NCBI GenBank assembly: GCA_026692885.1
Contig: JAPLNJ010000258.1
Location: 1-12,900 of the forward strand
DNA length: 12,900 bases
Source: Planctomycetota bacterium
GTDB taxonomy: Bacteria > Planctomycetota > Planctomycetia > Pirellulales > Pirellulaceae
Direction of reading: 5' to 3'
Part shown: in pieces, positions 1 through 12,863 of the stretch
How the letters are laid out: every line of letters starts with the position of its first letter
Position numbering within the stretch: the first letter of the stretch is position 1
The notes under the pieces: model-generated
What the model was told of the DNA's origin: nothing
The model's input: only the letters and a program-made list of their open reading frames with translations
Databases searched by the model: none
Position numbers and translations under genes: made by a program

Positions 1-1935
1 AGCGCGGCGAAACAGTCGTGCCGCGCGCTGCGGGACTTCCTGGTGCGTTATCCGGAGGTGCGCTGCGTGGTCAGCGGTCGGCCATACGCTATCCGGCGCT
101 ATTGGGATCTGTTGTTCGAACCCCAGGGAACGTGGCAATTCGTCAAGGTGGACGTGTTCACCCACGACGAATGTCGGCAATTCGTGGGACCCGAGCGGCT
201 AGCCCACCTCACGCGTCTGGGGGCCGATGTGATCTCGGTGCCCCGGGCCCTGGAGATGATTCAGCAGATTCCGGTCAAGTTCCTGCCGAGCCTGCGCACC
301 ACGAGCGATGTGTACTGGAAATCGCTGGAGGGCATGCTCGAGGAGGCGTTGAAGAACCAAGCGGACCATGTCGGATGGCCTTTGCACCAGACCCGACGGC
401 TGTTCGCGCTGTTGGCTTTCGAGATGCTGCGCTGCGGCTATCGGGCCGGCGAGGCCGGCATCAAGGGCGGCGAAGACGCGACGAGCTTCATGGCCAGGAT
501 CCTGGCCGCCCAAGGCCCGTTGCTGCGCAGTTGGTTGGACATCGAGAACCGGGCACAACTGGAACAGCACCTGGTGCAATTGCTGGCGGTGAACGAGATT
601 CTGGCGGATCCGGTGCTGGCCGGTCGCGGGAAACCAGAAGTCGTGCATTTCCTCTGGCGAAACCAGGCCCTGATGGACATGTTCGCCGCGCTCTGGCTGA
701 CGCGTTATGCAAACGAGCCGGCGGACTATCGCTGGTTCCACCAACAGCTTGGTGAGCGGGCAAGCCGCGAACTCTGCAAGCTGACGGTCGAGATGCCACT
801 GGCCGAGCCCAAGGCGACGTATGTGAAGGCGATGTCCGTGGTGTTCACCGACGCGGTGCGGCCGCCGGAGCCGCTGCCTCCACGGAACAAGCTTGAGACT
901 TCCCCACGGCGCCGGACCGCCGCTTCGCTCCGCTATTGGGGGAAGCCGCTGTCCGTCCTGTTCAGAGACCGCGAGCCGCCGGCTGCGGCTGTCGAAACGC
1001 CATCAACAACAAGAGCCCCCAAGACTCGCCGACGGCATTGGACCGAGTGGATCTACCGCAGTTGGCCGAACCTGCTGCAGATCGCGGGCTACCTGAGGGA
1101 ACCCGGCTGGACGGACGATGCGCTGAGGGCCGCGACGTGGGCCGCTCAGCGCGAGGCCCGACGGTGCGTGGAGTTGAACCGGGAGTTGTCCGACGCGAAC
1201 GCCGCTCGCGAGCTGCTATTGCAGTTCCTCGGAGAATTCCCCTTGATCAAGCGGGGGTCTCGGGGAACCGCCGCGCAGCGCGTGGCCGCGGAGCTGGAGC
1301 GGGGGCTGGTTCGTGTACCGCCGGACGACGCTTGCAGTCACACATGTCCGGGAAACGTGCGAAAGGCTACGCCCAGCGTGGAGATCGAACCGTTCTGGCT
1401 GGGCGCGATGCCCGTGACCAACGTCCAGTACGAGCTGTTCGATCCGGCACATCAACAGCAACACGGCCGGGCGAGTCCCGGAGACACGTGTCCCGCCATC
1501 GAGGTTTGCTGGTACGACGCGTGGTGCTATGCCGTCTGGTCCGGCGGGCGGCTGCCGACCGAGGAGGAGTGGGAGTATGCGTGCCGGGCAGGCTCGGCGG
1601 GAGCTTGGTGTTTCGGAGACGACGATCAGCGGCTCAACGACTATGCGTGGTACTACTCCAACGCCGGTGGGCAGACACAACCGGTCGGTAGCAAGGCTCC
1701 AAACATCTGGGGGCTGCATGATTTGCACGGCAATGTGTGGGAGTGGTGCGACAGCTGGTATGACGAAAGTCGCACAATCCGGGTGTTTCGCGGCGGGAGC
1801 TGGAAGAGCCCCCTGGAGGACAGCCGGTCGGCGTACCGCAACGGCAGTTCGCCGTCGTTTCAAAACGTCCACGTGGGCTTTCGAGTGGCAGCGGTTCCGG
1901 CCCGCCGTCAAATCGGGCCGGCCGAACGCCGGTAA
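1..1935 (+). CDS. NACHT-type NTPase with C-terminal FGE-sulfatase/lectin-like domain, copy A (5'-partial)
   Basis: The frame is open from base 1, so the gene starts upstream of the window; 644 residues are visible. The first codons match copy B from position 5084, just after its Walker B, so the P-loop lies outside the window. The segment CVVSGRPYAIRRY near residue 22 is the NACHT sensor region. A long helical region follows, then an FGE-sulfatase (SUMF1/EgtB/PvdO-type) domain over about the last 190 residues, with motifs MPVTNVQYELF, GGRLPTEEEWEYACRAG, HGNVWEWC, RGGSW and GFRVA. STAND/NACHT proteins are ATP-driven switches, and FGE-fold tails often act as binding modules. The catalytic cysteine pair of true FGEs is absent, so enzyme activity is unlikely. 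Relative to copy B it has about 49 extra Pro/Arg-rich codons in the linker (about 881-1027). It converges on the M16 gene at 2104. Confidence 0.85.
   Translation, partial: SAAKQSCRALRDFLVRYPEVRCVVSGRPYAIRRYWDLLFEPQGTWQFVKVDVFTHDECRQFVGPERLAHLTRLGADVISVPRALEMIQQIPVKFLPSLRTTSDVYWKSLEGMLEEALKNQADHVGWPLHQTRRLFALLAFEMLRCGYRAGEAGIKGGEDATSFMARILAAQGPLLRSWLDIENRAQLEQHLVQLLAVNEILADPVLAGRGKPEVVHFLWRNQALMDMFAALWLTRYANEPADYRWFHQQLGERASRELCKLTVEMPLAEPKATYVKAMSVVFTDAVRPPEPLPPRNKLETSPRRRTAASLRYWGKPLSVLFRDREPPAAAVETPSTTRAPKTRRRHWTEWIYRSWPNLLQIAGYLREPGWTDDALRAATWAAQREARRCVELNRELSDANAARELLLQFLGEFPLIKRGSRGTAAQRVAAELERGLVRVPPDDACSHTCPGNVRKATPSVEIEPFWLGAMPVTNVQYELFDPAHQQQHGRASPGDTCPAIEVCWYDAWCYAVWSGGRLPTEEEWEYACRAGSAGAWCFGDDDQRLNDYAWYYSNAGGQTQPVGSKAPNIWGLHDLHGNVWEWCDSWYDESRTIRVFRGGSWKSPLEDSRSAYRNGSSPSFQNVHVGFRVAAVPARRQIGPAERR
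881..1027 (+). other. In-frame 147-nt linker insertion in copy A NACHT gene
   Basis: Copy A carries about 49 extra codons here compared with copy B, where the flanking sequences GCTGCCTC and TGGACCGAGTGG are nearly adjacent (about 5960). The inserted peptide is rich in Pro, Arg and Ala, including SPRRRTAASLRYWGKPL. The insert holds a 7-bp inverted repeat, CTTCCCC at 900-906 and GGGGAAG around 940-946. It keeps the frame, so the protein is extended and not broken. It could be a captured small repeat element, or it could be ancestral sequence lost from copy B; the sequence alone does not decide. Confidence 0.6.
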
Positions 1936-1989
1936 GGAGGCGGGCCAGCGGATCGCGGAATGTAGCCTGCCGGGGGGGTAGCGGCTATC

Positions 1990-2071
1990 AAGGAACAACG
2001 TCGTCGGACGGAATTCATTCCGCCCGAGGGGACTGCGGTCCGCTCCACGCCGAGACGACGAAGTTGTTCTT
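1990..2071. terminator. Imperfect long hairpin between convergent genes
   Basis: The 168-bp gap between the NACHT stop at 1935 and the M16 stop at 2104 contains an imperfect inverted repeat. AAGGAACAACGTCGTC (1990-2005) can pair with GACGACGAAGTTGTTCTT (2054-2071), with one bulged G and a bulged GAA. Inside it lies a perfect short palindrome, CGGAAT-TC-ATTCCG (2009-2022). A structure between convergent ends fits a bidirectional terminator, but there is no clean T-run, so the role is inferred from position only. Confidence 0.4.
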
Positions 2072-2103
2072 GAGCCGCCGCTTAGGTCGAACCCTGCTCC
2101 AGC

Positions 2104-3396
2104 CTATCGCAGCGGAATCCGGGGCGGGGCCGTCCACAACCCATCCCACCAATTGCCACCGGTCACCTGTTCCGCCTGTTGCAGCGGGCCGAGCGCGACG
2201 GTCGTGTGGGTGCTGAGGGGATAGCACGCGAGGACGTCGGCGATGTCCTGAGAAGTCACGCGGTCGTAACGCTCCACGATCTCACGCGCCGTAAGGTATA
2301 CACCGCGGGTGATCCAGTTGTTACCGACGCTGAACAGGCGGTTGGCGGGCCGTTCGGCTTGGAGAATCACATGAGAACGTATCTTGCTCTTGGCGAGAGT
2401 TAGTTCTGCATTACTAACGCCCTCGCTTTCGGCCTGCATGTAGATCCGCTGAATTCGCCGTAGGTTCTCCGGAGTATCCCCAGGTGCGCAGCAGAGATAC
2501 GTCATGAAAATGCCTGCCCCCTGATAGTCGTATGTCTCCAGAACTGCGGTTTCGGCGAGACCCGTGTCGAACAACTCCCAGTGCAGGCGACTGCCACTGG
2601 AGTCGCCCAAGATGGTTGCCAGCAACCTCGCCGCATATCGTTGCTCGTCCTCGGCTGTCGGGCCGTCGGCGATCTGTACCACGTGCTGCTGCGCGGCCAG
2701 CGAGTTATGGATCATGCGAAAAGCATTGGTGCCGTGCGCGCGCGGCGTCCAGCGGGAAGTTTCGCACGGCTCCCAGCGTCCGCACCAGCCATCCGTCTGG
2801 CGGACCAAACGATCGAAGTCCACGTTGCCCGCCGCAACCAGAACCATGTTGCCAGGACTGTAACGCTGACGAAAATAATCGTGCATGTCGTCATGTTTCA
2901 ACGCCACGACACTGGCGGGCGTACCCGTCACGCTACGAGCCAGCGGATGACCGCCGAAATGGGCCGCCATACACTTTTCGTGGGCGCCGAACGGCGGCGA
3001 ACCCTCGTACTTCGCAATGGCCTCCAGAGCCACCTGCTTCTGAAGGTCGAAATCCTTCTGCCGCAACGAGGGCCGCAGGAGGTCGCAGAACAATTCCAAG
3101 GCTCGATCCTGATAGTCGGGCAGAAACGCGGCGAAATAGACCGTCTGCTCTTCGCTGGTGAAGGCGTTGCTGTGACTCCCAATTTCGTCCAACTGGCGGT
3201 TGACGTCTACAGCCGTACGCACGGGAGTCCTCTGCCACACGATGAACTGTAAGAGATGGCTCACGCCATGCACCTGGTCGCTCTCATCCCGCGAGCCGGT
3301 CTTCACGAAGAAGCCGAGGGCCGTCGAGTATGCACGTGGGCTGCATTCCGCAACGATTTCCAGCCCGTTATCCAGGGTCGCTTTTCGGAATTCCAA
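2104..3396 (-). CDS. M16-family pseudoprotease, copy A (M16a)
   Basis: The protein has about 430 residues, the usual length for single-unit bacterial M16 proteins. It begins MEFRKATLDNGLEIVAEC, the typical M16 N-terminal strand. The start is TTG at 3396-3394, preceded by GGAG with 7-nt spacing; the same TTG and GGAG occur in copy B. Later M16 landmarks are NAFTSEEQTVYFA, SLRQKDFD, PPFGAHEKCM, RQRYSPGNMVLVAAGNVD and the C-terminal half with ELFDTGLAE. The zinc site HxxEH is H47-L-L-Q50-F51, so the catalytic Glu and second His are gone. The downstream LEEI motif reads LEAI near residue 126, losing the third ligand. It should therefore be a non-catalytic binding, chaperone-like or structural subunit. 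No signal peptide is seen, so it is probably cytoplasmic. The remnant of M16b overlaps its start. Confidence 0.85.
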   Translation of the reverse strand: MEFRKATLDNGLEIVAECSPRAYSTALGFFVKTGSRDESDQVHGVSHLLQFIVWQRTPVRTAVDVNRQLDEIGSHSNAFTSEEQTVYFAAFLPDYQDRALELFCDLLRPSLRQKDFDLQKQVALEAIAKYEGSPPFGAHEKCMAAHFGGHPLARSVTGTPASVVALKHDDMHDYFRQRYSPGNMVLVAAGNVDFDRLVRQTDGWCGRWEPCETSRWTPRAHGTNAFRMIHNSLAAQQHVVQIADGPTAEDEQRYAARLLATILGDSSGSRLHWELFDTGLAETAVLETYDYQGAGIFMTYLCCAPGDTPENLRRIQRIYMQAESEGVSNAELTLAKSKIRSHVILQAERPANRLFSVGNNWITRGVYLTAREIVERYDRVTSQDIADVLACYPLSTHTTVALGPLQQAEQVTGGNWWDGLWTAPPRIPLR

Positions 3397-3508
3397 GGTT
3401 TTTCTCCAGAGGTGGCACGCCCCAGGCAACGTCGCGAAAGTCGCGAGGCGGATTCGCGGCGAGATACGCGTTGATCCGCACCCCGGTCAAGCCTTCCAAC
3501 GTATCTCG
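3368..3508 (-). pseudogene. C-terminal remnant of M16b gene, copy A
   Basis: In the minus frame ending with TAA at 3370-3368 the translation RDTLEGLTGVRINAYL, then AANPPRDF, then PPLEKNLGIP aligns residue by residue with the last 41 residues of the full M16b in copy B. The rest of that gene, about 1.1 kb, is missing. Sequence homologous to the region upstream of the copy B start resumes at about 3520. The original stop (TAA in copy B) has become AAA, extending the frame by five codons into the M16a start. It overlaps the 5' end of M16a, as in copy B. It is a deletion relic and is not expected to give a functional M16 protein, though it still supplies the M16a ribosome-binding site. Confidence 0.75.
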
Positions 3509-3811
3509 GGTTCCATCGAGCCACGGAGTGAGGACTCACCCGATATTATCGCGAGTCGCACGCGGATGCCAGTTCCCCGGTCGTGAAGAACGCCATATTC
3601 GGCGCGAATCCAAGACGTCCCTCGGCCGGTTGCAACAGGCACACGGGGCTGTGGTCCGGCGATTGCATCGCTGGGCCAACGGCGATCTTTTTTTCGGGCA
3701 ATGACGCCGGCAGGACCGTTTCCGGCGCCTCTAGTCTTGCAGAAGGCAAGCGAGGAATGGATGCCAGGGAGGGTGGGCAAGAACGACCGTTCATTTATCG
3801 GGGAGGTTGTC
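3509..3811. other. Divergent intergenic region, copy A
   Basis: No convincing gene was found. Positions 3520-3617 are homologous to the region upstream of M16b in copy B (about 9509-9606), including the conserved block TATTATCGCGAGTCGCACGC. Read on the minus strand this gives GATAAT, a possible -10 box for the M16 transcript. Positions 3618-3845 are absent from copy B. The segment carries the Shine-Dalgarno sequence and start of the small membrane-protein gene. An open minus frame (3546-3794) runs through, but an indel between the copies shifts its frame, so it is not counted as a gene. Confidence 0.5.
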
Positions 3812-4150
3812 ATGCATTCGTTAGTACTGAATCTCACGTCGCAGGAATTGGCAATCGTTTTGGGGATCGTCGTCTTGGCCTGTATGGCCGGCGGCTTCCT
3901 GGCGGCAGCGATCGTTTTGCCGCGAACCTGGTGCTGGCTGGGAAAGCACCTGGCTCGCACCGCGGGGCTCTGCTGCATCTGTCTGGTCAGTCTGTTGGCG
4001 GCCCAGGGGCGCATCACGGCCGACATGGTACAGGGGTCCGGGGAGCAGTTGGTCCGTGATGTGCGTAACGTCGTGAACGGCTGGCCTTCGTTTCTCCGCC
4101 ACCAAGACGAAGGCGTGGTGCCGGCGGACGAGGCCGCTTCCCAGTCCTGA
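3812..4150 (+). CDS. Small two-helix membrane protein, copy A
   Basis: The protein has 112 residues, starting at ATG 3812 with the strong Shine-Dalgarno GGGGAGG five bases upstream; the frame is open further back but that region lacks such a site. Two hydrophobic segments are visible: residues 12-36 (LAIVLGIVVLACMAGGFLAA and following) and 48-66 (around TAGLCCICLVSLLAAQ). They are separated by a short basic loop with WCWLGKH. The C-terminal ~45 residues are polar and acidic at the end. The family is not recognised. It is the plus-strand partner of the M16 genes in both cassette copies, which suggests a membrane anchor or membrane-acting component; that role is inference. Copy B lacks the first ~13 residues. 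Confidence 0.75.
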   Translation: MHSLVLNLTSQELAIVLGIVVLACMAGGFLAAAIVLPRTWCWLGKHLARTAGLCCICLVSLLAAQGRITADMVQGSGEQLVRDVRNVVNGWPSFLRHQDEGVVPADEAASQS

Positions 4151-4174
4151 TGCGGGGGCTTCTGCAGAACCGCT

Positions 4175-4195
4175 GGAAACGCTTTTCGCGTTTTC
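4175..4195 (+). terminator. Candidate hairpin terminator after membrane-protein gene, copy A
   Basis: GGAAACGC (4175-4182) pairs with GCGTTTTC (4188-4195), with one G-T wobble and loop TTTTC, 25 bases after the stop codon. The T-run lies inside the stem-loop and not after it, so this is a weak terminator candidate judged mainly on position. Confidence 0.35.
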
Positions 4196-4440
4196 GGTCC
4201 CTGGCCCCGCCTGGGAACGCACTGCCCGGCCGGCTCTGCATGTCCCGGCTCATGCCCCGAGGACCCACGGCGGTCCTGTTCGTAGACACGGTGCATCGAG
4301 CCAGTAATCTGGCTGTTACATCGGCGCTCGATAAGCGCTGGCCATTCCTGCAGGCTGGGCGTCGCCGCTGGCGGCGAGGCGCCAAGGGCTGAGGCGAGCG
4401 TGATGGACAGGAGCCATCCCGGCTAGGCGTGAGCGGGGCA

Positions 4441-4466
4441 GTCGTCGACCGCCGTGTGTCGACGAC
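4441..4466. promoter_or_regulatory. Perfect 9-bp dyad upstream of NACHT-FGE copy B
   Basis: GTCGTCGAC (4441-4449) and GTCGACGAC (4458-4466) form a perfect inverted repeat with an 8-base spacer, 63 bases before the chosen ATG. TATATT at 4482-4487 could be a -10 box, although no good -35 is visible. The geometry suits a dimeric regulator site or an RNA hairpin in the leader. A GTG at 4454 that would extend the reading frame upstream lies inside this dyad, which argues against using it as the start. Confidence 0.4.
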
Positions 4467-4528
4467 GGCAGTGGCGGACGATATATTGCCGTTCGCGATG
4501 CTTTGTTCCGCCCCACGAGACGTCTTCG

Positions 4529-6925
<2,397 letters not shown>

Positions 6926-6955
6926 AGACGCAGGTAAGCGGAGCGTGAAACACAG

Positions 6956-6991
6956 CCTGCGGGAAGCAGGGCAGATCCCGCTCCACCCTGC
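6956..6991. terminator. Candidate hairpins between convergent genes, copy B
   Basis: In the 82-bp gap between the NACHT stop and the M16a stop, CCTGC (6956-6960) can pair with GCAGG (6966-6970). Alternatively GCAGGG (6966-6971) can pair with CCCTGC (6986-6991). These are mutually exclusive GC-rich stems without T-runs. A terminator role is plausible from their place between convergent genes, but weak. Confidence 0.3.
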
Positions 6992-7007
6992 GGCAACGCA
7001 TGGCAGT

Positions 7008-8255
7008 TCAAGTCCAATTGCCGCCGGTCACGTGTTCTGCCCGCTGAAGCGGGCCGAGCGCGACGGTTGTGTGGGTGCTGAGGGGATAGCACGCGAGTAC
7101 GTCGGCAATGTCCTGACAAGTTACGCGGTCGTAGCAATCCACGATCTCGCGCACGGTACGGTATACACCTCGCTGGAGCCAATTATTTCCAACACTGAAC
7201 AGGCGGTTGACGGGGCGTTCGCCCTGGAGGATCACATGAGAACGAATCTTGCTCTTGGCCTGCGTCAATTCCGCATCGCTGATGCCTTCGCGTTCGGCTT
7301 GCACGTAGATCTGTTGAAGTTGTTGCAGGTTCTCCAGAGTATGCTCTGATGCGCAGCAGAGATACGTGAAGCAAGCCCCAGCGCCCTGGTAGTCGCATGT
7401 CTCCAGGACTGCGCATTCGGCGAGACCCGTGTCGAACAACTCCCAGTACATGCGACTGCCGCGGGAGTCGCCTAAGACCATTGCCAGCAGCCTCGCTGCG
7501 TAACGTCGCTCGTCCTCGGCAGCCGGGCCATCGGCGATCTGCACCACATACTGCTTCCCGGCCTCCGGTTTGTGAATCACGCGTAACACGTTCGTGCCGT
7601 GTGCGCGCGGCGTCCAGCGGGAAGTCTCACACGGTGCCCAGCGTCCGCACCAACGCTCGGCCTGGCGGACCAGGCGATCGAAGTCCACTTTGCCCGCCGC
7701 AACCAAAGCCATGTTGCCAGGACTGTAGCGCTGACGGAAATAATCCAGCATGTCGCCGCGCTTCAACGCCATGACGCTGGCAGGTGTGCCCAGAACACTG
7801 CGTGCCAAAGGATGGTCGCCGAAGTGGGCCTCCATGCACTTTTCGTGGGCGCCGAATGGCGGGGTAGTGTCGTACTTGGCGATGACCTCCAGAACCAACT
7901 TCTTCTCGAACTCGAACTCCTCTTGCCGTAGCGAGGGCCGCAGGACGTCGCAGAGCAATTCCAAGGCGCGATCCTGATCATCCGGCAGAAACACGGCATA
8001 ATAGACCGTCTGTTCTTCGCTCGTGTAGGCGTAATTATACATTCCGGTCATGTCGCGCTGGAAGTCCCCCGCCGTACGCGTGGGGGTCCTCTGCAACGAA
8101 CAGAACATGATAAGATGACTTGCACCGTGCAACTCCGCGCTTTCGTCGCGCGGGCCGGCCTTCACAAAGAAACCAATGGCACCCGTCCAGGCAAGGGCGT
8201 TGCATTCGGCCACGATCTCCAGCCCGTTTTCCAGGGTCGCTTTACGGAATTCCAA
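7008..8255 (-). CDS. M16-family pseudoprotease, copy B (M16a)
   Basis: The protein has about 415 residues and is clearly paralogous to the gene at 2104-3396 over its whole length. The start is TTG at 8255-8253 with GGAG seven bases upstream, identical in arrangement to copy A. It overlaps the end of M16b (stop at 8242) by 14 bases, which suggests translational coupling. M16 landmarks include EFRKATLENGLEIVAEC, AYTSEEQTVYYAVFLP, PPFGAHEKCMEAHFGDHPLA and FRQRYSPGNMALVAAGKVDF. The zinc motif is H47-L-I-M50-F51 in place of HxxEH, and LEEI is LEVI near residue 124, so all but one metal or catalytic residue is lost. Different replacements in the two copies (Q versus M, A versus V) show the site is unconstrained while the fold is kept. 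The C-terminus is about 13 residues shorter than in copy A. Confidence 0.87.
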   Translation of the reverse strand: MEFRKATLENGLEIVAECNALAWTGAIGFFVKAGPRDESAELHGASHLIMFCSLQRTPTRTAGDFQRDMTGMYNYAYTSEEQTVYYAVFLPDDQDRALELLCDVLRPSLRQEEFEFEKKLVLEVIAKYDTTPPFGAHEKCMEAHFGDHPLARSVLGTPASVMALKRGDMLDYFRQRYSPGNMALVAAGKVDFDRLVRQAERWCGRWAPCETSRWTPRAHGTNVLRVIHKPEAGKQYVVQIADGPAAEDERRYAARLLAMVLGDSRGSRMYWELFDTGLAECAVLETCDYQGAGACFTYLCCASEHTLENLQQLQQIYVQAEREGISDAELTQAKSKIRSHVILQGERPVNRLFSVGNNWLQRGVYRTVREIVDCYDRVTCQDIADVLACYPLSTHTTVALGPLQRAEHVTGGNWT

Positions 8256-9489
8256 GGTTCGTCTCCAATGGTTGCCGGCCCAAGGTGACGACGCGAAAGT
8301 CACGTGGCGGGTTCGTGGCCAAGTACGCGTTGACTCGATCGCACGTCAGGTCGTCTACCGCGTCCCGGAAGTCATGCCGTCCACAGACCCGTCCCAGGTG
8401 ATACCAGTCCGCGGCGAGCGAAGAACTTCGTCCCGGGCTGGACTCGAGTTGACGGACAGATGAGAATTTTAGCCCTGCCTTCACGGCCTCCAGTTCGTTC
8501 GTCTCAATCCCGTGAGCTAGGCGATGGATTTCTCCTAGGAGCACGGCTAGCGCCTCCTGGGCGCGATTCGACTCGGCCGCCGCGTAGCAGGTGACGCAGC
8601 CCCTATCCCGCAGAGTGTGCACGGTGGCATAGGAGGCCCAATCGCATAGCTCGCGTTTCGTCCATAGTTCAGTGAACAGCCGGGACCGCAGCCCGTCACC
8701 CAGGGCTCCGACCGCGGCGCGCGATTCGGGGTATCGCTTGTCCGAGTACGGCACGGCGGGATTGCTGATGGCAATGTACGTCCAACTCGAATCGTGCGTG
8801 AGGTGTCGATATCGGTCTGCGCTGGGCACCTCCAGCAAAGGGGCCGCCGCCTTCGGTTGCCAATCTGTGAACAGCGTCTCCACGTGCTCCGTGACGCGCG
8901 GCCAATCAATCTTTCCGACGACACTCAGAATCGCGCCGCCCGGACGATAGAAATCCTCAAAATGGTGCAACAAGTCCGCCAATTGGACGGTGTGAATCGA
9001 CTCCGCCGACCCGGACGCGTTACGGCCGTACGGTTCCCCGTACTGCAGCCGTTTCACCTCCTGAATCGCTCTCTGCCCCAAGTCATCCTCGATCTCGCGA
9101 ATCTCCTGGAGGCAGACCGCTCGTCCGTCCTCCAGTTGATCGGACGGCAACTGAGGCCGTCGCACAACATCGGCGTAGATCGACAACACCTCTAGCAGAC
9201 TCTCGGCCGGCATCGCCCCGCCGAAATGGACATGGGCATTGGTGACTGATGTACTCGCGTCGGCACCGAGCAACTCGAGGTCTGTGACGAACTCGCGGGA
9301 ATTCCGGCGGCCAGCCCCGCGTTGTACCATCTCGGCGAGAAAGTTGGACAGCCCCAGTTGGTCCGCAGGGTCGTGGCAGGCGCCGGCGGGAACCAACAGT
9401 GAGAAAGCCGCCGACTCAAACCATTCGATCGGCTCGGCCAGCAGCACGAGACCATTGTCGAATTCATGAATGTGAATATCTTCGGGCAT
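8242..9489 (-). CDS. M16-family pseudoprotease, second type (M16b), copy B
   Basis: The protein has 415 residues from ATG 9489 (MPEDIHIHEFDNGLVLLAEP). The frame is open further to 9615 but the M16 homology begins at this ATG; no clear Shine-Dalgarno is seen. M16 signature regions are FSLLVPAGACHDPADQLGLS, then NFLAEMVQRGAGRR, a QLPSDQLEDGRAVCLQEI block, YGRNASGSAESI, the FYRPGGAILSVVGKIDW strand, GDGLRSRLFTELWTKREL and the tail NAYLATNPPRDF. HxxEH is replaced by N49-F-L-A52-E53, so the protein is non-catalytic, although the LQEI glutamate remains. M16 proteins often work as two-subunit pairs with one inactive partner. Here both partners lack the site, so the pair may be a scaffold, binding chamber or regulator. 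It is first in a coupled pair with M16a. Confidence 0.85.
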   Translation of the reverse strand: MPEDIHIHEFDNGLVLLAEPIEWFESAAFSLLVPAGACHDPADQLGLSNFLAEMVQRGAGRRNSREFVTDLELLGADASTSVTNAHVHFGGAMPAESLLEVLSIYADVVRRPQLPSDQLEDGRAVCLQEIREIEDDLGQRAIQEVKRLQYGEPYGRNASGSAESIHTVQLADLLHHFEDFYRPGGAILSVVGKIDWPRVTEHVETLFTDWQPKAAAPLLEVPSADRYRHLTHDSSWTYIAISNPAVPYSDKRYPESRAAVGALGDGLRSRLFTELWTKRELCDWASYATVHTLRDRGCVTCYAAAESNRAQEALAVLLGEIHRLAHGIETNELEAVKAGLKFSSVRQLESSPGRSSSLAADWYHLGRVCGRHDFRDAVDDLTCDRVNAYLATNPPRDFRVVTLGRQPLETNLGIP

Positions 9490-9608
9490 GGCAGTCTGTT
9501 GAATTAGGCCGCGGAGCGATGGCACACCAGTTATTATCGCGAGTCGCACGCAGATTCTAGTTCCCCAGTCGTGAAGAGCGGGCCATATCGGCGCGTATCC
9601 AAGACGAA
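9490..9608. promoter_or_regulatory. Divergent region upstream of M16b copy B
   Basis: This 119-bp gap separates the M16b start from the plus-strand membrane-protein frame. It keeps the block TATTATCGCGAGTCGCACGC found in copy A at about 3543, which gives GATAAT on the minus strand as a candidate -10 for the M16 pair; no convincing -35 was found. Compared with copy A, 228 bp that hold the Shine-Dalgarno and start codon of the membrane-protein gene are missing at the 9606/9607 junction. Confidence 0.4.
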
Positions 9609-9911
9609 TTGGCAATCGTCTTGGGGATCATCGTCTCGGCCTGTATGGTCGGCGGCTTTCCCGCGGCATCGATCGTTTTGCCGCGAACCTGGTGCTGGCT
9701 GGGTAAGCACCTGGCTCGCACCGCGGGATCCAGCTGCATCTGTCTGGTCAGCCTGTTGGCGGCACAGGGGCGCATCACGGCGGGGTTGATCAGAGAGTCG
9801 GGCGAACAACTGGTCGGTGACGTGCGTCACTTCGTCGACGGCTGGGCCCCGTTCGTCCGACATCAAGACGAAGGCGAGATGCCGGCGGACGAAACCACCA
9901 CCCCGTCCTGA
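9609..9911 (+). pseudogene. Small two-helix membrane protein, copy B, 5'-truncated
   Basis: The frame encodes about 100 residues that align with copy A from its residue 14 to the end (AIVLGIIVSACMVGGF, then WCWLGKHLARTAG, then SCICLVSLLAAQGRITAG). Both hydrophobic helices and the acidic tail persist. A deletion joined upstream sequence directly to this point, removing the ATG and strong Shine-Dalgarno of copy A. The only in-frame start near the junction is TTG at 9609, without a ribosome-binding site, and the frame is closed by TAG at 9558. It may be weakly expressed from the TTG, or be a decaying gene. The body of the frame is still intact, so loss, if real, is recent. Confidence 0.55.
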
Positions 9912-10073: not shown

Positions 10074-11306
10074 CTACACATCGGCGGTCCCTGGTTGCCA
10101 CTGTTCCAACCACTTGGCCTTCACCGACTCTTGGTAAGCGATCAGGATGCGGTGATACGAGAGGAGTTGCTCAAACGCGTCTCGAAGCGTCTTCAACGGG
10201 ACCACCTCCGGGTCGTCACGATAGTCCACGACGACCTTCTTGTCCTGCTTCGCGTGTTCATCAGCCACTACGACCTCTTGAAGCCCCGCTTCGCGTGCCG
10301 CTTGAAGCTTCGCGCGGAGTTCGCGGACCGGCCCCAGACGCACGTCTGCTCCGGGCTCGCCTGCCAAGGTCGCCGTCACCGTTCCCAGCGGATCGAGCTG
10401 GAGATGCTCGTCTCGTTCGTCTCCGGGCAGGGCACCCCAGGCCGCCCAGATCGCACAGCAGGCGGCGACCTCCACCGATCGATCAAAAAGATAAGGCGTC
10501 GCAAAGTTTTCGACCTTGTTCTCGTCTCTCTCCGGTGGGCAAAACTTCGTGATTCCCCAGCGGCCGCGACATTTCTGCGATAGCCCCGCATAACGCCAGG
10601 CATTCCCCATCGCGGCGAGGAAACTGCCGTTGCCCTCGGGCCCCAACGCGGTCAGCCCCAGCTTCAGCGGATCAGGCCGAAATCCCTGCCCGCCGTCGAG
10701 GATCAAATCGACCGTCAAGCGCGCCACTTGGCCGCTGTCGTCCTGTCTGTACAGAAGAATCGGCAGACTGGCGGTTCTCACCTTTGGACGCAAGTCCTTG
10801 GAGGAGTATGTGTACTCCGGAACCAGAGCATCCAGGATGTCCCACACAACCCAAAAGCCTGTGGATTGAAGGCATCCTAGTTCTTGGCAATAGCGTCTCA
10901 AGACGCCGTAGTCCGCAACGTGGTACGCCGGCAGACTTGTACCTGGCAGCCCCGGCCAAGCAGCATCAAACTCCTGGGCTGCTTTCTTGAGCCGGTCCCA
11001 GTCCACATCCCCACCCGCATCGCATGCCGCCAGAGCGGCCCCCGTCAGACCGTGCAGCAGGTGATTTCCCTGGTCCCACACGTCCTGGTCACGGTCGCTT
11101 ACGCCGTAGATTTGGCAGACGATGTCCTTCTCAACCGTGAGCAACGCTTCACATGTTTTCTTGAACGCCTCACCGGCCCCCGTCGTCAATGCCTCGCGGG
11201 CGGCCGACAACAACAGACAATCCTCTCCGAAGAAGCGACGCTTGCCTACGGTCGGATCGTAGACTCCCGCGCTGACGACATGGCAAAGATCCGCGAGTTT
11301 GGTCAT
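10074..11306 (-). CDS. Protein with Lon (S16)-like C-terminal proteolytic domain
   Basis: The protein has 410 residues. The start is ATG 11306, with GGGAG seven bases upstream; the GTG at 11312 is too close to that site. The N-terminal ~260 residues are not recognised. Residues about 270-355 resemble the Lon proteolytic domain. FDRSVEVAACCAIWAAWG matches the region of the Lon catalytic serine (Ser277 here). GPVRELRAKLQAAREAGL, then QEVVVADEH, matches the Lon GGLKEKLLAAHRGGI segment, placing Lys333 at the catalytic lysine. No AAA+ ATPase module is present, so any protease activity would depend on another energy source or be ATP-independent. It is the last gene of a three-gene minus-strand operon, 29 bases after its neighbour. 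The Lon assignment is by motif and moderately uncertain; an inactive Lon-like fold is possible. Confidence 0.6.
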   Translation of the reverse strand: MTKLADLCHVVSAGVYDPTVGKRRFFGEDCLLLSAAREALTTGAGEAFKKTCEALLTVEKDIVCQIYGVSDRDQDVWDQGNHLLHGLTGAALAACDAGGDVDWDRLKKAAQEFDAAWPGLPGTSLPAYHVADYGVLRRYCQELGCLQSTGFWVVWDILDALVPEYTYSSKDLRPKVRTASLPILLYRQDDSGQVARLTVDLILDGGQGFRPDPLKLGLTALGPEGNGSFLAAMGNAWRYAGLSQKCRGRWGITKFCPPERDENKVENFATPYLFDRSVEVAACCAIWAAWGALPGDERDEHLQLDPLGTVTATLAGEPGADVRLGPVRELRAKLQAAREAGLQEVVVADEHAKQDKKVVVDYRDDPEVVPLKTLRDAFEQLLSYHRILIAYQESVKAKWLEQWQPGTADV

Positions 11307-11335
11307 CGGCACACTCCCAGGCTGTCAGATGGCGG

Positions 11336-12403
11336 CTACCGCTTCAGCAGATTCCTCAAGCATTCGATCTTGGTTTTGAGCTTCATGTCACTGGCGACGG
11401 ACGGCTGTGCGAGCAATTGCTCGACCTCAGCCAGTTGGAAATAGGCCAGTGTCTTCGGTTGGGCCGGGTGTAGATAATAGTGGATCTCCAACGGGTCGCG
11501 TTCGGCTCCCAGGATCTCGTCGCACCTGACGCTGGCCGAGCAGAACACGGTGCCATGTGCGGTCTCATATTCGGGCAGGCATACCAAGCGCGTCCCCAGG
11601 AGTTGTTTTCGCGACGCGCCATGCGCTAGGATGCGGGCCACTCCGAACGGAACCCTTTCAGCGGGCTGGCGGATTTCGAGTACGTGGCCGATCGGTTCAA
11701 TCCTGGTGAGGTCGGGCACGTCCTCCAACGGGGGGACCGTTTGCCCGGTTTTCGTGGACCGGGCTTCCGTCGACGGCCGGGCCGGCGGCGCACTCGACCC
11801 GGACAGCGCTCCGCTGGGAGCTGCCTGCCGCGCCGACGGTGCGTGGCGAGGTGCCCGTGCGACGACCGCCGTAGTCGCCTCCGGTCCTCCTTCTCGATAA
11901 GCCGTCAGCAGATCGGTAATCCAAGCGACCTCCGCGCGGTGCTCTTGGAGAGCCGCGACTGCGAGCCTGCGCAACCCCACGGGCAGTGACGCGTCGTGCT
12001 GCGCTTCGTCTAAGGCCTCCCAACCCCAAGGATCGGCCAACTGTTCGAGCAGCTGCACATCCTCCTCCCCGCGCACCTCGAGCACGTACTTCAAGCGGTG
12101 CTGGCCGGGCGTTAAATCGGCCACGCGGAACTGCCCGCGGTGATCGGTACGGCCACACCACGAGAACCCCCCCGCTGCGGTCTTTGGTTCCAGCCCCCAG
12201 GCCAGGTTTCGGGCGGCTGGCCGCAGATGGGGCCCCAACGACAGTGTGACCAGGTGCTCCAGCCGTTGATCCGGGCGCTGCCGCGTGGTCACCATCCAGA
12301 AGCCTTCTTCCAGTTCGTGGTATGCGGAGCGGCCCTGAGTCAGACGCAGGTCACTCAGCGATTGGAGTAGCTCTGTAGGGTATTCAAGGGTTGAGTTTGT
12401 CAT
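11336..12403 (-). CDS. Hypothetical protein with carboxypeptidase-regulatory-like module
   Basis: The protein has 355 residues from ATG 12403, with GAGG nine bases upstream; the start lies inside the end of the preceding gene (20-base overlap), suggesting coupled translation. Residues about 75-110 (WCGRTDHRGQFRVADLTPGQ) look like a carboxypeptidase-regulatory-like beta-sandwich module of the kind common in planctomycete regulatory proteins. Residues about 115-172 are helical. Residues about 178-230 are a Pro/Ser/Ala-rich disordered linker. The last ~120 residues form an unrecognised domain containing GTRLVCLPEY and LEIHYYLHPAQPKTLAYF. No signal peptide or membrane helix is seen. Its operon partners are a zinc-ribbon protein and a Lon-like protein. 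The name rests on one module; the function is unknown. Confidence 0.6.
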   Translation of the reverse strand: MTNSTLEYPTELLQSLSDLRLTQGRSAYHELEEGFWMVTTRQRPDQRLEHLVTLSLGPHLRPAARNLAWGLEPKTAAGGFSWCGRTDHRGQFRVADLTPGQHRLKYVLEVRGEEDVQLLEQLADPWGWEALDEAQHDASLPVGLRRLAVAALQEHRAEVAWITDLLTAYREGGPEATTAVVARAPRHAPSARQAAPSGALSGSSAPPARPSTEARSTKTGQTVPPLEDVPDLTRIEPIGHVLEIRQPAERVPFGVARILAHGASRKQLLGTRLVCLPEYETAHGTVFCSASVRCDEILGAERDPLEIHYYLHPAQPKTLAYFQLAEVEQLLAQPSVASDMKLKTKIECLRNLLKR

Positions 12404-12863
12404 GATCGGAATCCTCACCGTTATCGTTCCAGTAGTCTAAAGCGTCTCCGCCAAAGATCCGTCTTTGGGTCCAAACTCCGGTAATGCCGCTCTTTCGCCG
12501 TCCGTTGCAGCGAGGGCAGGATTCGTCCAGGTTGGATGGGTCTTTCGCCACCCAGTAGTTGCCACATCGACCGCAATTGAAAGCACACGACCGAAAACGG
12601 GTCTCCTTGGGGAAGAGCCTGACATCGAGCAGATTTGACGGGAGCGGTCGTTTGTCGGCGGCCTGACAAATGGGACACACGCGATAGACGTCGTCGTTAA
12701 CCCAACCGTTGCGATAATGCTTCGGGGCTGGGGCGTGCGCCGGAAAGGCCGCCGCCAAGAGACACCGATTGAGCCACGTCCACCATGGCGAATCCTCAGC
12801 CGCTGATGCGCCCCGGATTTTTTGAGACGGGAAGTGCCAGATTGTGTGAGATGGCCGGGGCAA
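12384..12863 (-). CDS. Zinc-ribbon protein of unknown function, start uncertain
   Basis: About 159 residues are read from TTG 12863. There is no in-frame ATG, and the frame is closed by TGA at 12884-12882, so the start could be this TTG, a later TTG/GTG, or an upstream frame if the sequence has an indel. Cysteine pairs are CPIC (63-66), C93/C97/C100 (CAFNCGRCGNYW) and CPRC (116-119). The last two pairs form a classical zinc ribbon separated by 15 residues. The C-terminus is acidic (NDNGEDSDHD) and overlaps the next gene by 20 bases. Zinc ribbons of this type mediate nucleic-acid or protein contacts. It is the first visible gene of the minus-strand operon; there is no clear function from sequence. 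Confidence 0.6.
   Translation of the reverse strand: MPRPSHTIWHFPSQKIRGASAAEDSPWWTWLNRCLLAAAFPAHAPAPKHYRNGWVNDDVYRVCPICQAADKRPLPSNLLDVRLFPKETRFRSCAFNCGRCGNYWVAKDPSNLDESCPRCNGRRKSGITGVWTQRRIFGGDALDYWNDNGEDSDHDKLNP

Follow-up and report, generated by a model that had tools for sequence, protein, structure and literature searches.

A planctomycete locus with duplicated NACHT-FGE genes, a Lon-like partner gene and M16 genes resembling maintained pseudopeptidases

The stretch of DNA analyzed here (the window, 12,900 bases) appears to be a whole planctomycete contig. Comparison of the window with itself revealed two collinear, same-strand, diverged copies (A and B) of a unit of about 5 kb, in which a NACHT-FGE gene (+) is followed by the M16 family gene M16a (−), its neighbor M16b (−, copy B only) and a gene for a small membrane protein (+). 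The features of the window are as follows.

1..1935, +, NACHT-FGE copy A, incomplete at its 5′ end because the window begins inside the gene (Pfam FGE 6.5e-39; NACHT-part HMM 1.7e-134)
2104..3396, −, M16a copy A, putative pseudopeptidase (Pfam M16; HxxEH replaced by HLLQF; second distal Glu replaced by Ala; TTG start as in P0002)
3383..3481, −, M16b remnant of copy A, last ~32 codons (sequence comparison)
3520..3617, no strand, intergenic stretch of copy A separating the M16 genes from the divergently oriented membrane gene (84% to 9508-9606)
3812..4150, +, membrane-protein gene of copy A, 112 aa (P0164, 66% over the whole length; hydropathy)
4529..6925, +, NACHT-FGE copy B, complete (Pfam NACHT 3.1e-6, FGE 1.1e-36)
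7008..8255, −, M16a copy B, putative pseudopeptidase (Pfam M16; HxxEH replaced by HLIMF; second distal Glu replaced by Val)
8242..9489, −, M16b, only in copy B (Pfam M16/M16_C; no HxxEH; R/Y pair lost)
9508..9606, no strand, intergenic stretch of copy B (self-comparison)
9609..9911, +, membrane-protein gene of copy B, shortened at the N-terminus (100 codons, starting at TTG; self-comparison)
10074..11312, −, Lon-protease-like gene d412 (profile comparison; Pfam Lon_C E 0.021, below cut-off)
11336..12418, −, d360, located 5′ of the Lon-like gene in the window, G001 and G042 (neighborhood comparison)
12384..12863, −, Cys-rich protein, probably zinc-binding (Cys pattern in sequence; weak DUF5817 match below cut-off)

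The two copies share 78–91% DNA identity, depending on the segment, and every matching segment reached E ≤ 3e-23. The segments (copy A / copy B, same strand throughout) are listed below.

1-880 / 5084-5963, 90.9%
1030-1973 / 5966-6963, 77.8%
2149-3474 / 7014-8333, 79.8%
3520-3617 / 9508-9606, 84.0%
3845-4150 / 9606-9911, 84.0%

These matches confirmed the tandem duplication proposed in a first-pass annotation of this DNA, together with the two losses described there: most of M16b is gone from copy A, and the membrane gene of copy B is without its start, having no equivalent of positions 3618-3844 (11 codons and the leader). The comparison of the copies gene by gene that the same annotation had called for gave dN/dS ratios (NG86) of 0.16 for the NACHT part, 0.22 for FGE, 0.24 for M16a and 0.32 for the membrane gene, showing that the open frames are under purifying selection. 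In the NACHT part (1-880 / 5084-5963), dS is roughly half that of the remaining unit (0.29, against about 0.63 for both FGE and M16a), a lower value that suggests gene conversion of this part.

The Pfam FGE-sulfatase domain (PF03781) was found at the C-terminus of both NACHT-FGE proteins, and the NACHT domain (PF05729) in copy B at 27.5 bits against a cut-off of 26.7; copy A is cut by the left end of the window. The conserved N-terminus of the family alignment A1 points to the ATG at 4529 as the likely start of copy B. Relatives of the FGE domain in the PDB include the DGR-type variable protein 2y3c. The FGE tail block contains no Cys in copy A and one in copy B; the positions of the catalytic Cys pair of the formylglycine-generating enzyme are presumed here.

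When the whole NACHT-FGE profile A1 was used as the query, it matched 139 of 146 genomes, mostly through the FGE domain alone, and it was replaced by the NACHT part A3. With the latter, NACHT-FGE proved rare, being present in at least 11 of 396 genomes (a lower bound from the best 3 candidates scored per genome). Nine of these 11 genomes carry at least two copies on one contig, the second copy of G133 being a weak match to the NACHT profile (1.6e-10). The array of G042 (C26:5774-48765; L052-L054) has six NACHT-FGE genes and one RT/template repeat in 43 kb, with ThiF, NYN and Pup-ligase genes close by; in G090 (L050:13437-16337), ThiF-family and GCS2 genes lie between NACHT-FGE genes. Some neighbor lists are provisional, as the ORF caller sometimes chose the wrong strand, for example for a sigma-factor gene of G001.

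In G042 and G133, a reverse transcriptase (RT, PF00078) and a template repeat are located among the NACHT-FGE genes. Both NACHT-FGE tails of G133 differ from the template solely at template adenines (14/14 and 13/13), as do two of five tails in G042 (17/17 and 16/16); for the remaining three G042 tails the corresponding fractions are 17/24, 18/35 and 16/22. Because this variation is adenine-specific, the NACHT-FGE family includes sensors diversified by DGR hypermutation. RT relatives were detected in 9 of 12 NACHT-FGE genomes (E ≤ 1e-10), on the NACHT-FGE contig itself only in G042 and G133. Among the annotated genes of the window no RT was identified, and no template repeat was seen on this one contig, a distant DGR being possible; of 33 codons, 8 differ synonymously and 6 non-synonymously between its FGE tails A and B, which is not an adenine-only pattern.

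Just outside the interval 1..9911 covered by the first-pass annotation lies the Lon-like gene. The gene was assigned to Lon because its profile matches that of planctomycete Lon (hhalign probability 93.4%, E 2.5e-7, against 0.1% for the reversed control). All nine Lon-like rows contain a Ser and a Lys that we take to form the Lon catalytic dyad, and the Lys aligns with that of planctomycete Lon. Pfam Lon_C scored below its cut-off in the window member and gave no hit in the other eight, even at E 10; a structure model built from 3 rows (pLDDT 38.1) was not used. The Lon-like gene is a recurrent partner of NACHT-FGE: it immediately precedes NACHT-FGE on the same strand in G001, G042, G235, G241 and G333, is flanked by two NACHT-FGE genes in G090, lies on the NACHT-FGE contig in G225, and is fused to NACHT-FGE in a second gene of G001. 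A single frame in G225 (L108:6295-9666) encodes a Lon_C-NACHT fusion with both domains over the Pfam cut-offs. Across the 396 genomes, with the best 4 Lon-like candidates scored per genome and all tallies therefore lower bounds, NACHT-FGE is also present in 7 of the 8 genomes that carry the Lon-like gene (NACHT-FGE in at least 11 genomes, the Lon-like gene in at least 8; P 9e-12), and the ratio was 4 of 5 (P 3.5e-7) when the three seed genomes were left out. That the Lon-like partner recurs and is at times fused to NACHT-FGE suggests that planctomycete arrays of these genes have a proteolytic output. In contrast to the same-strand operons of its relatives, the Lon-like gene of the window is on the opposite strand, 3.1 kb from NACHT-FGE.

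The fused gene of G001 stands in a row with anti-sigma-like and sigma-70-like genes (L049:1-5887; both identified by eye). PADLOC matched none of NACHT-FGE, M16, the Lon-like protein and d360; the Cys-rich protein received only weak PtuB matches (best 2.6e-5).

Pfam M16 and M16_C were found in both M16a proteins and in M16b. Elsewhere M16a is a core gene: it was detected once each (E ≤ 1e-70) in at least 138 of the 146 genomes from the order that includes G001, a Planctomycetaceae MAG (a lower bound, up to the best 12 candidates per genome being scored). M16b adjoins M16a in 31 of 32 examined loci, which comprise the best 30 of the genome search plus L007 and L008 (L006 being common to both sets). 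HFLEH is present in all 32 of these M16a proteins and HxxEH in none of their 31 M16b partners. M16b-M16a is thus a housekeeping pair, and we assume that an active pair exists elsewhere in the genome of the host.

The M16a copies of the window depart from this pattern at the active site, a point that the first-pass annotation had overlooked. Among the best 120 of 2015 matches, the two window copies lack HxxEH and all 118 other relatives keep it. Of the 98 columns conserved at ≥99%, 12 are changed in copy A and 18 in copy B; the 16 active-site columns take 9 and 10 of these changes, respectively (P 1.3e-6 and P 1.5e-5, with block widths set after the changes had been seen), and the losses cluster in two helices, the zinc helix and that of the distal Glu. 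The second Glu of the LEEI motif is lost in both copies (Ala/Val) and the first is kept. The lost residue is matched in the alignment by the only Glu that beta-MPP has at this place (ilrE), which suggests that it is a zinc ligand, and this alignment fits the HxxEH...E rule in the available text of PMC11266112. Since H51F, K55Q and G56R are common to both copies, catalytic loss began before the copies parted. The deviation also extends beyond the active site: at the 137 columns conserved at ≥95%, copy A has 15 changes and copy B 22, compared with at most 10 in other relatives.

Nevertheless, the M16a frames are open over 415–430 codons, and omega between the copies is 0.24 (0.17–0.30 in 200 bootstraps). 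The fold of copy B is predicted to be intact (pLDDT 88.3), with a TM-score of 0.90 to both 3eoq, the best PDB match, and 7v4y_A. The two copies sit on a long stem (0.43), and no M16a relative was found in the viral contigs searched. Judged by sequence, they look like maintained pseudopeptidases; purifying selection is silent on which function is kept. M16b is altered as well, with changes in 18 of 72 columns conserved at ≥95%, compared with 0–9 in 31 relatives. The conserved REKRGLCY block, in which we take the lost R and Y to be the R/Y pair of the partner subunit, carries R275W and Y283W (both ≥95% conserved in the 31 relatives) and an inserted Asp. Such a pair is described in the accessible part of PMC12731061.

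The start of the membrane-protein gene in copy A is supported by P0164, a 112-aa relative from another planctomycete MAG. In the 100-codon frame of copy B, the first hydrophobic stretch is intact and the second weaker. The 146 order-level genomes gave no convincing match to this gene, only two weak ones (E 3.2e-4, with 3 stops, and 3.9e-4), and none was found in 241 and 199 family-level genomes in a search run without a positive control.

On these data, we tentatively prefer the explanation that the window belongs to a STAND-NTPase conflict (immunity) locus of a planctomycete. The sensor or switch would be NACHT-FGE, its FGE tail (C-type-lectin fold) binding a trigger and its NACHT domain oligomerizing, and the Lon-like product would be the likely proteolytic effector. 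Sensor genes of this kind multiply locally, and in the window one duplication would have taken along the neighboring M16b-M16a pair and the membrane gene, whose product is a possible membrane-acting component. The M16 pair would derive from the housekeeping M16B peptidase, would have lost both active-site halves before the duplication, and would then have been kept as a pseudopeptidase that most likely serves as a binding partner, either a peptide-binding adaptor or a bait resembling the M16 peptidase of the cell. Among NACHT proteins, bNACHT25 with DnaJ offers a precedent for sensing by way of a host protein (PMC12169576). Counting against this explanation are the M16/NACHT-FGE association, which was seen on one contig only, the M16a changes outside the active site, the strand and distance of the Lon-like gene in the window, the Lon assignment by profile with eight of nine members lacking a Pfam hit, and the presumed status of the active M16 pair.

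It is about equally likely that the M16 paralogue, derived from the housekeeping gene, came to lie beside the sensor by chance and was copied with it, its own role being unrelated to NACHT-FGE; it could, for instance, regulate the active M16 peptidase or act on it as a dominant-negative partner. Tandem duplication can happen without a functional link, the convergent genes NACHT-FGE and M16a form no operon, and no M16 match was found in the NACHT-FGE stretches examined in other genomes, some of which are short (3 kb in G057). On the other hand, selection acts on both M16a copies next to the two sensors, and among the relatives listed only this locus shows the inactivation. The first-pass annotation had gone further and read NACHT-FGE, M16a, M16b and the membrane gene as one conserved unit, from an order and strand pattern identical in both copies; we consider this highly improbable. 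A block duplication copies whatever adjoins, so the shared order is no proof of one system, and in other genomes the parts are not linked: wherever both genes could be placed, M16a is 2.95 Mb from NACHT-FGE in G090 and on a different contig in G001, G003, G042, G057 and G133, whose assemblies are unfinished, so that the two could adjoin. A core M16a and a rare, unlinked NACHT-FGE are largely the independent scatter that the annotation had itself set against its proposal. The relative P0164 in another MAG speaks for the four-part unit, and the membrane-gene searches described above speak against it.

Erosion of the M16 and membrane genes on their way to being lost would account for the missing M16b of copy A, the cut membrane gene of copy B and the long stem of the M16a pair, but we regard it as improbable given the long open frames, an omega that reaches at most 0.30 in the bootstraps, and changes that gather at the active site instead of being scattered. 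Within the preferred immunity explanation, the dead M16a and M16b could serve as a decoy in trans for the NACHT receptor, inactive but with its shape kept, the M16a of copy A using the M16b of copy B. Invaders that attack the real M16 peptidase or mimic its substrates would engage the decoy and trip NACHT-FGE; this version is a long shot. The animal and plant NLRs are considered relatives of the bacterial NACHT proteins, and those of plants employ decoys imitating host proteins that pathogens attack. If true, a dead copy of a core peptidase, held by selection between duplicated NACHT sensors, would be a concrete bacterial counterpart of the NLR decoys.

The first-pass annotation knew of no described system of this make-up. 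NACHT-FGE sensors are already described; an M16 association was not found in the literature searched. STAND-FGS fusions, their multiple copies and their DGR association appear in the accessible text of PMC8195603 and PMC10907252, as do FGS domains of planctomycete systems in that of PMC7159879. The word M16 is absent from the accessible text of these three papers, and the word Lon from that of PMC7159879 and PMC8195603. Titles and abstracts of the open-access literature yielded no link of M16 to NACHT systems, an absence that is not proof.

As far as the available text describes the STAND NTPase-FGS systems, the window resembles them in its NACHT domain with C-terminal FGE, its several copies and a nearby peptidase gene, and the relatives G042 and G133 resemble the DGR-diversified systems of this type in their RT and template repeat. 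The window differs in the dead M16 pair between its copies and in that no RT or template repeat was seen there. It carries the domains of these systems and, from its sequence, may share a defense or cell-death activity. The bacterial M16B heterodimer TTHA1264/TTHA1265 (7v4y, 3eoq) is matched in M16 fold and gene pairing, whereas M16a of the window is without the catalytic and zinc residues and M16b without the R/Y pair. The mitochondrial bc1 core proteins I and II likewise form an M16 pair with a degenerate active site, but they belong to a respiratory complex; HxxEH is missing from yeast core I according to the accessible part of PMC12731061. Finally, bNACHT25 has no encoded pseudo-copy in the available description, and its likeness to the window, set side by side from that description, is conceptual only: a NACHT protein that detects infection through a host protein, in this case sensing phage via the host DnaJ (accessible part of PMC12169576).
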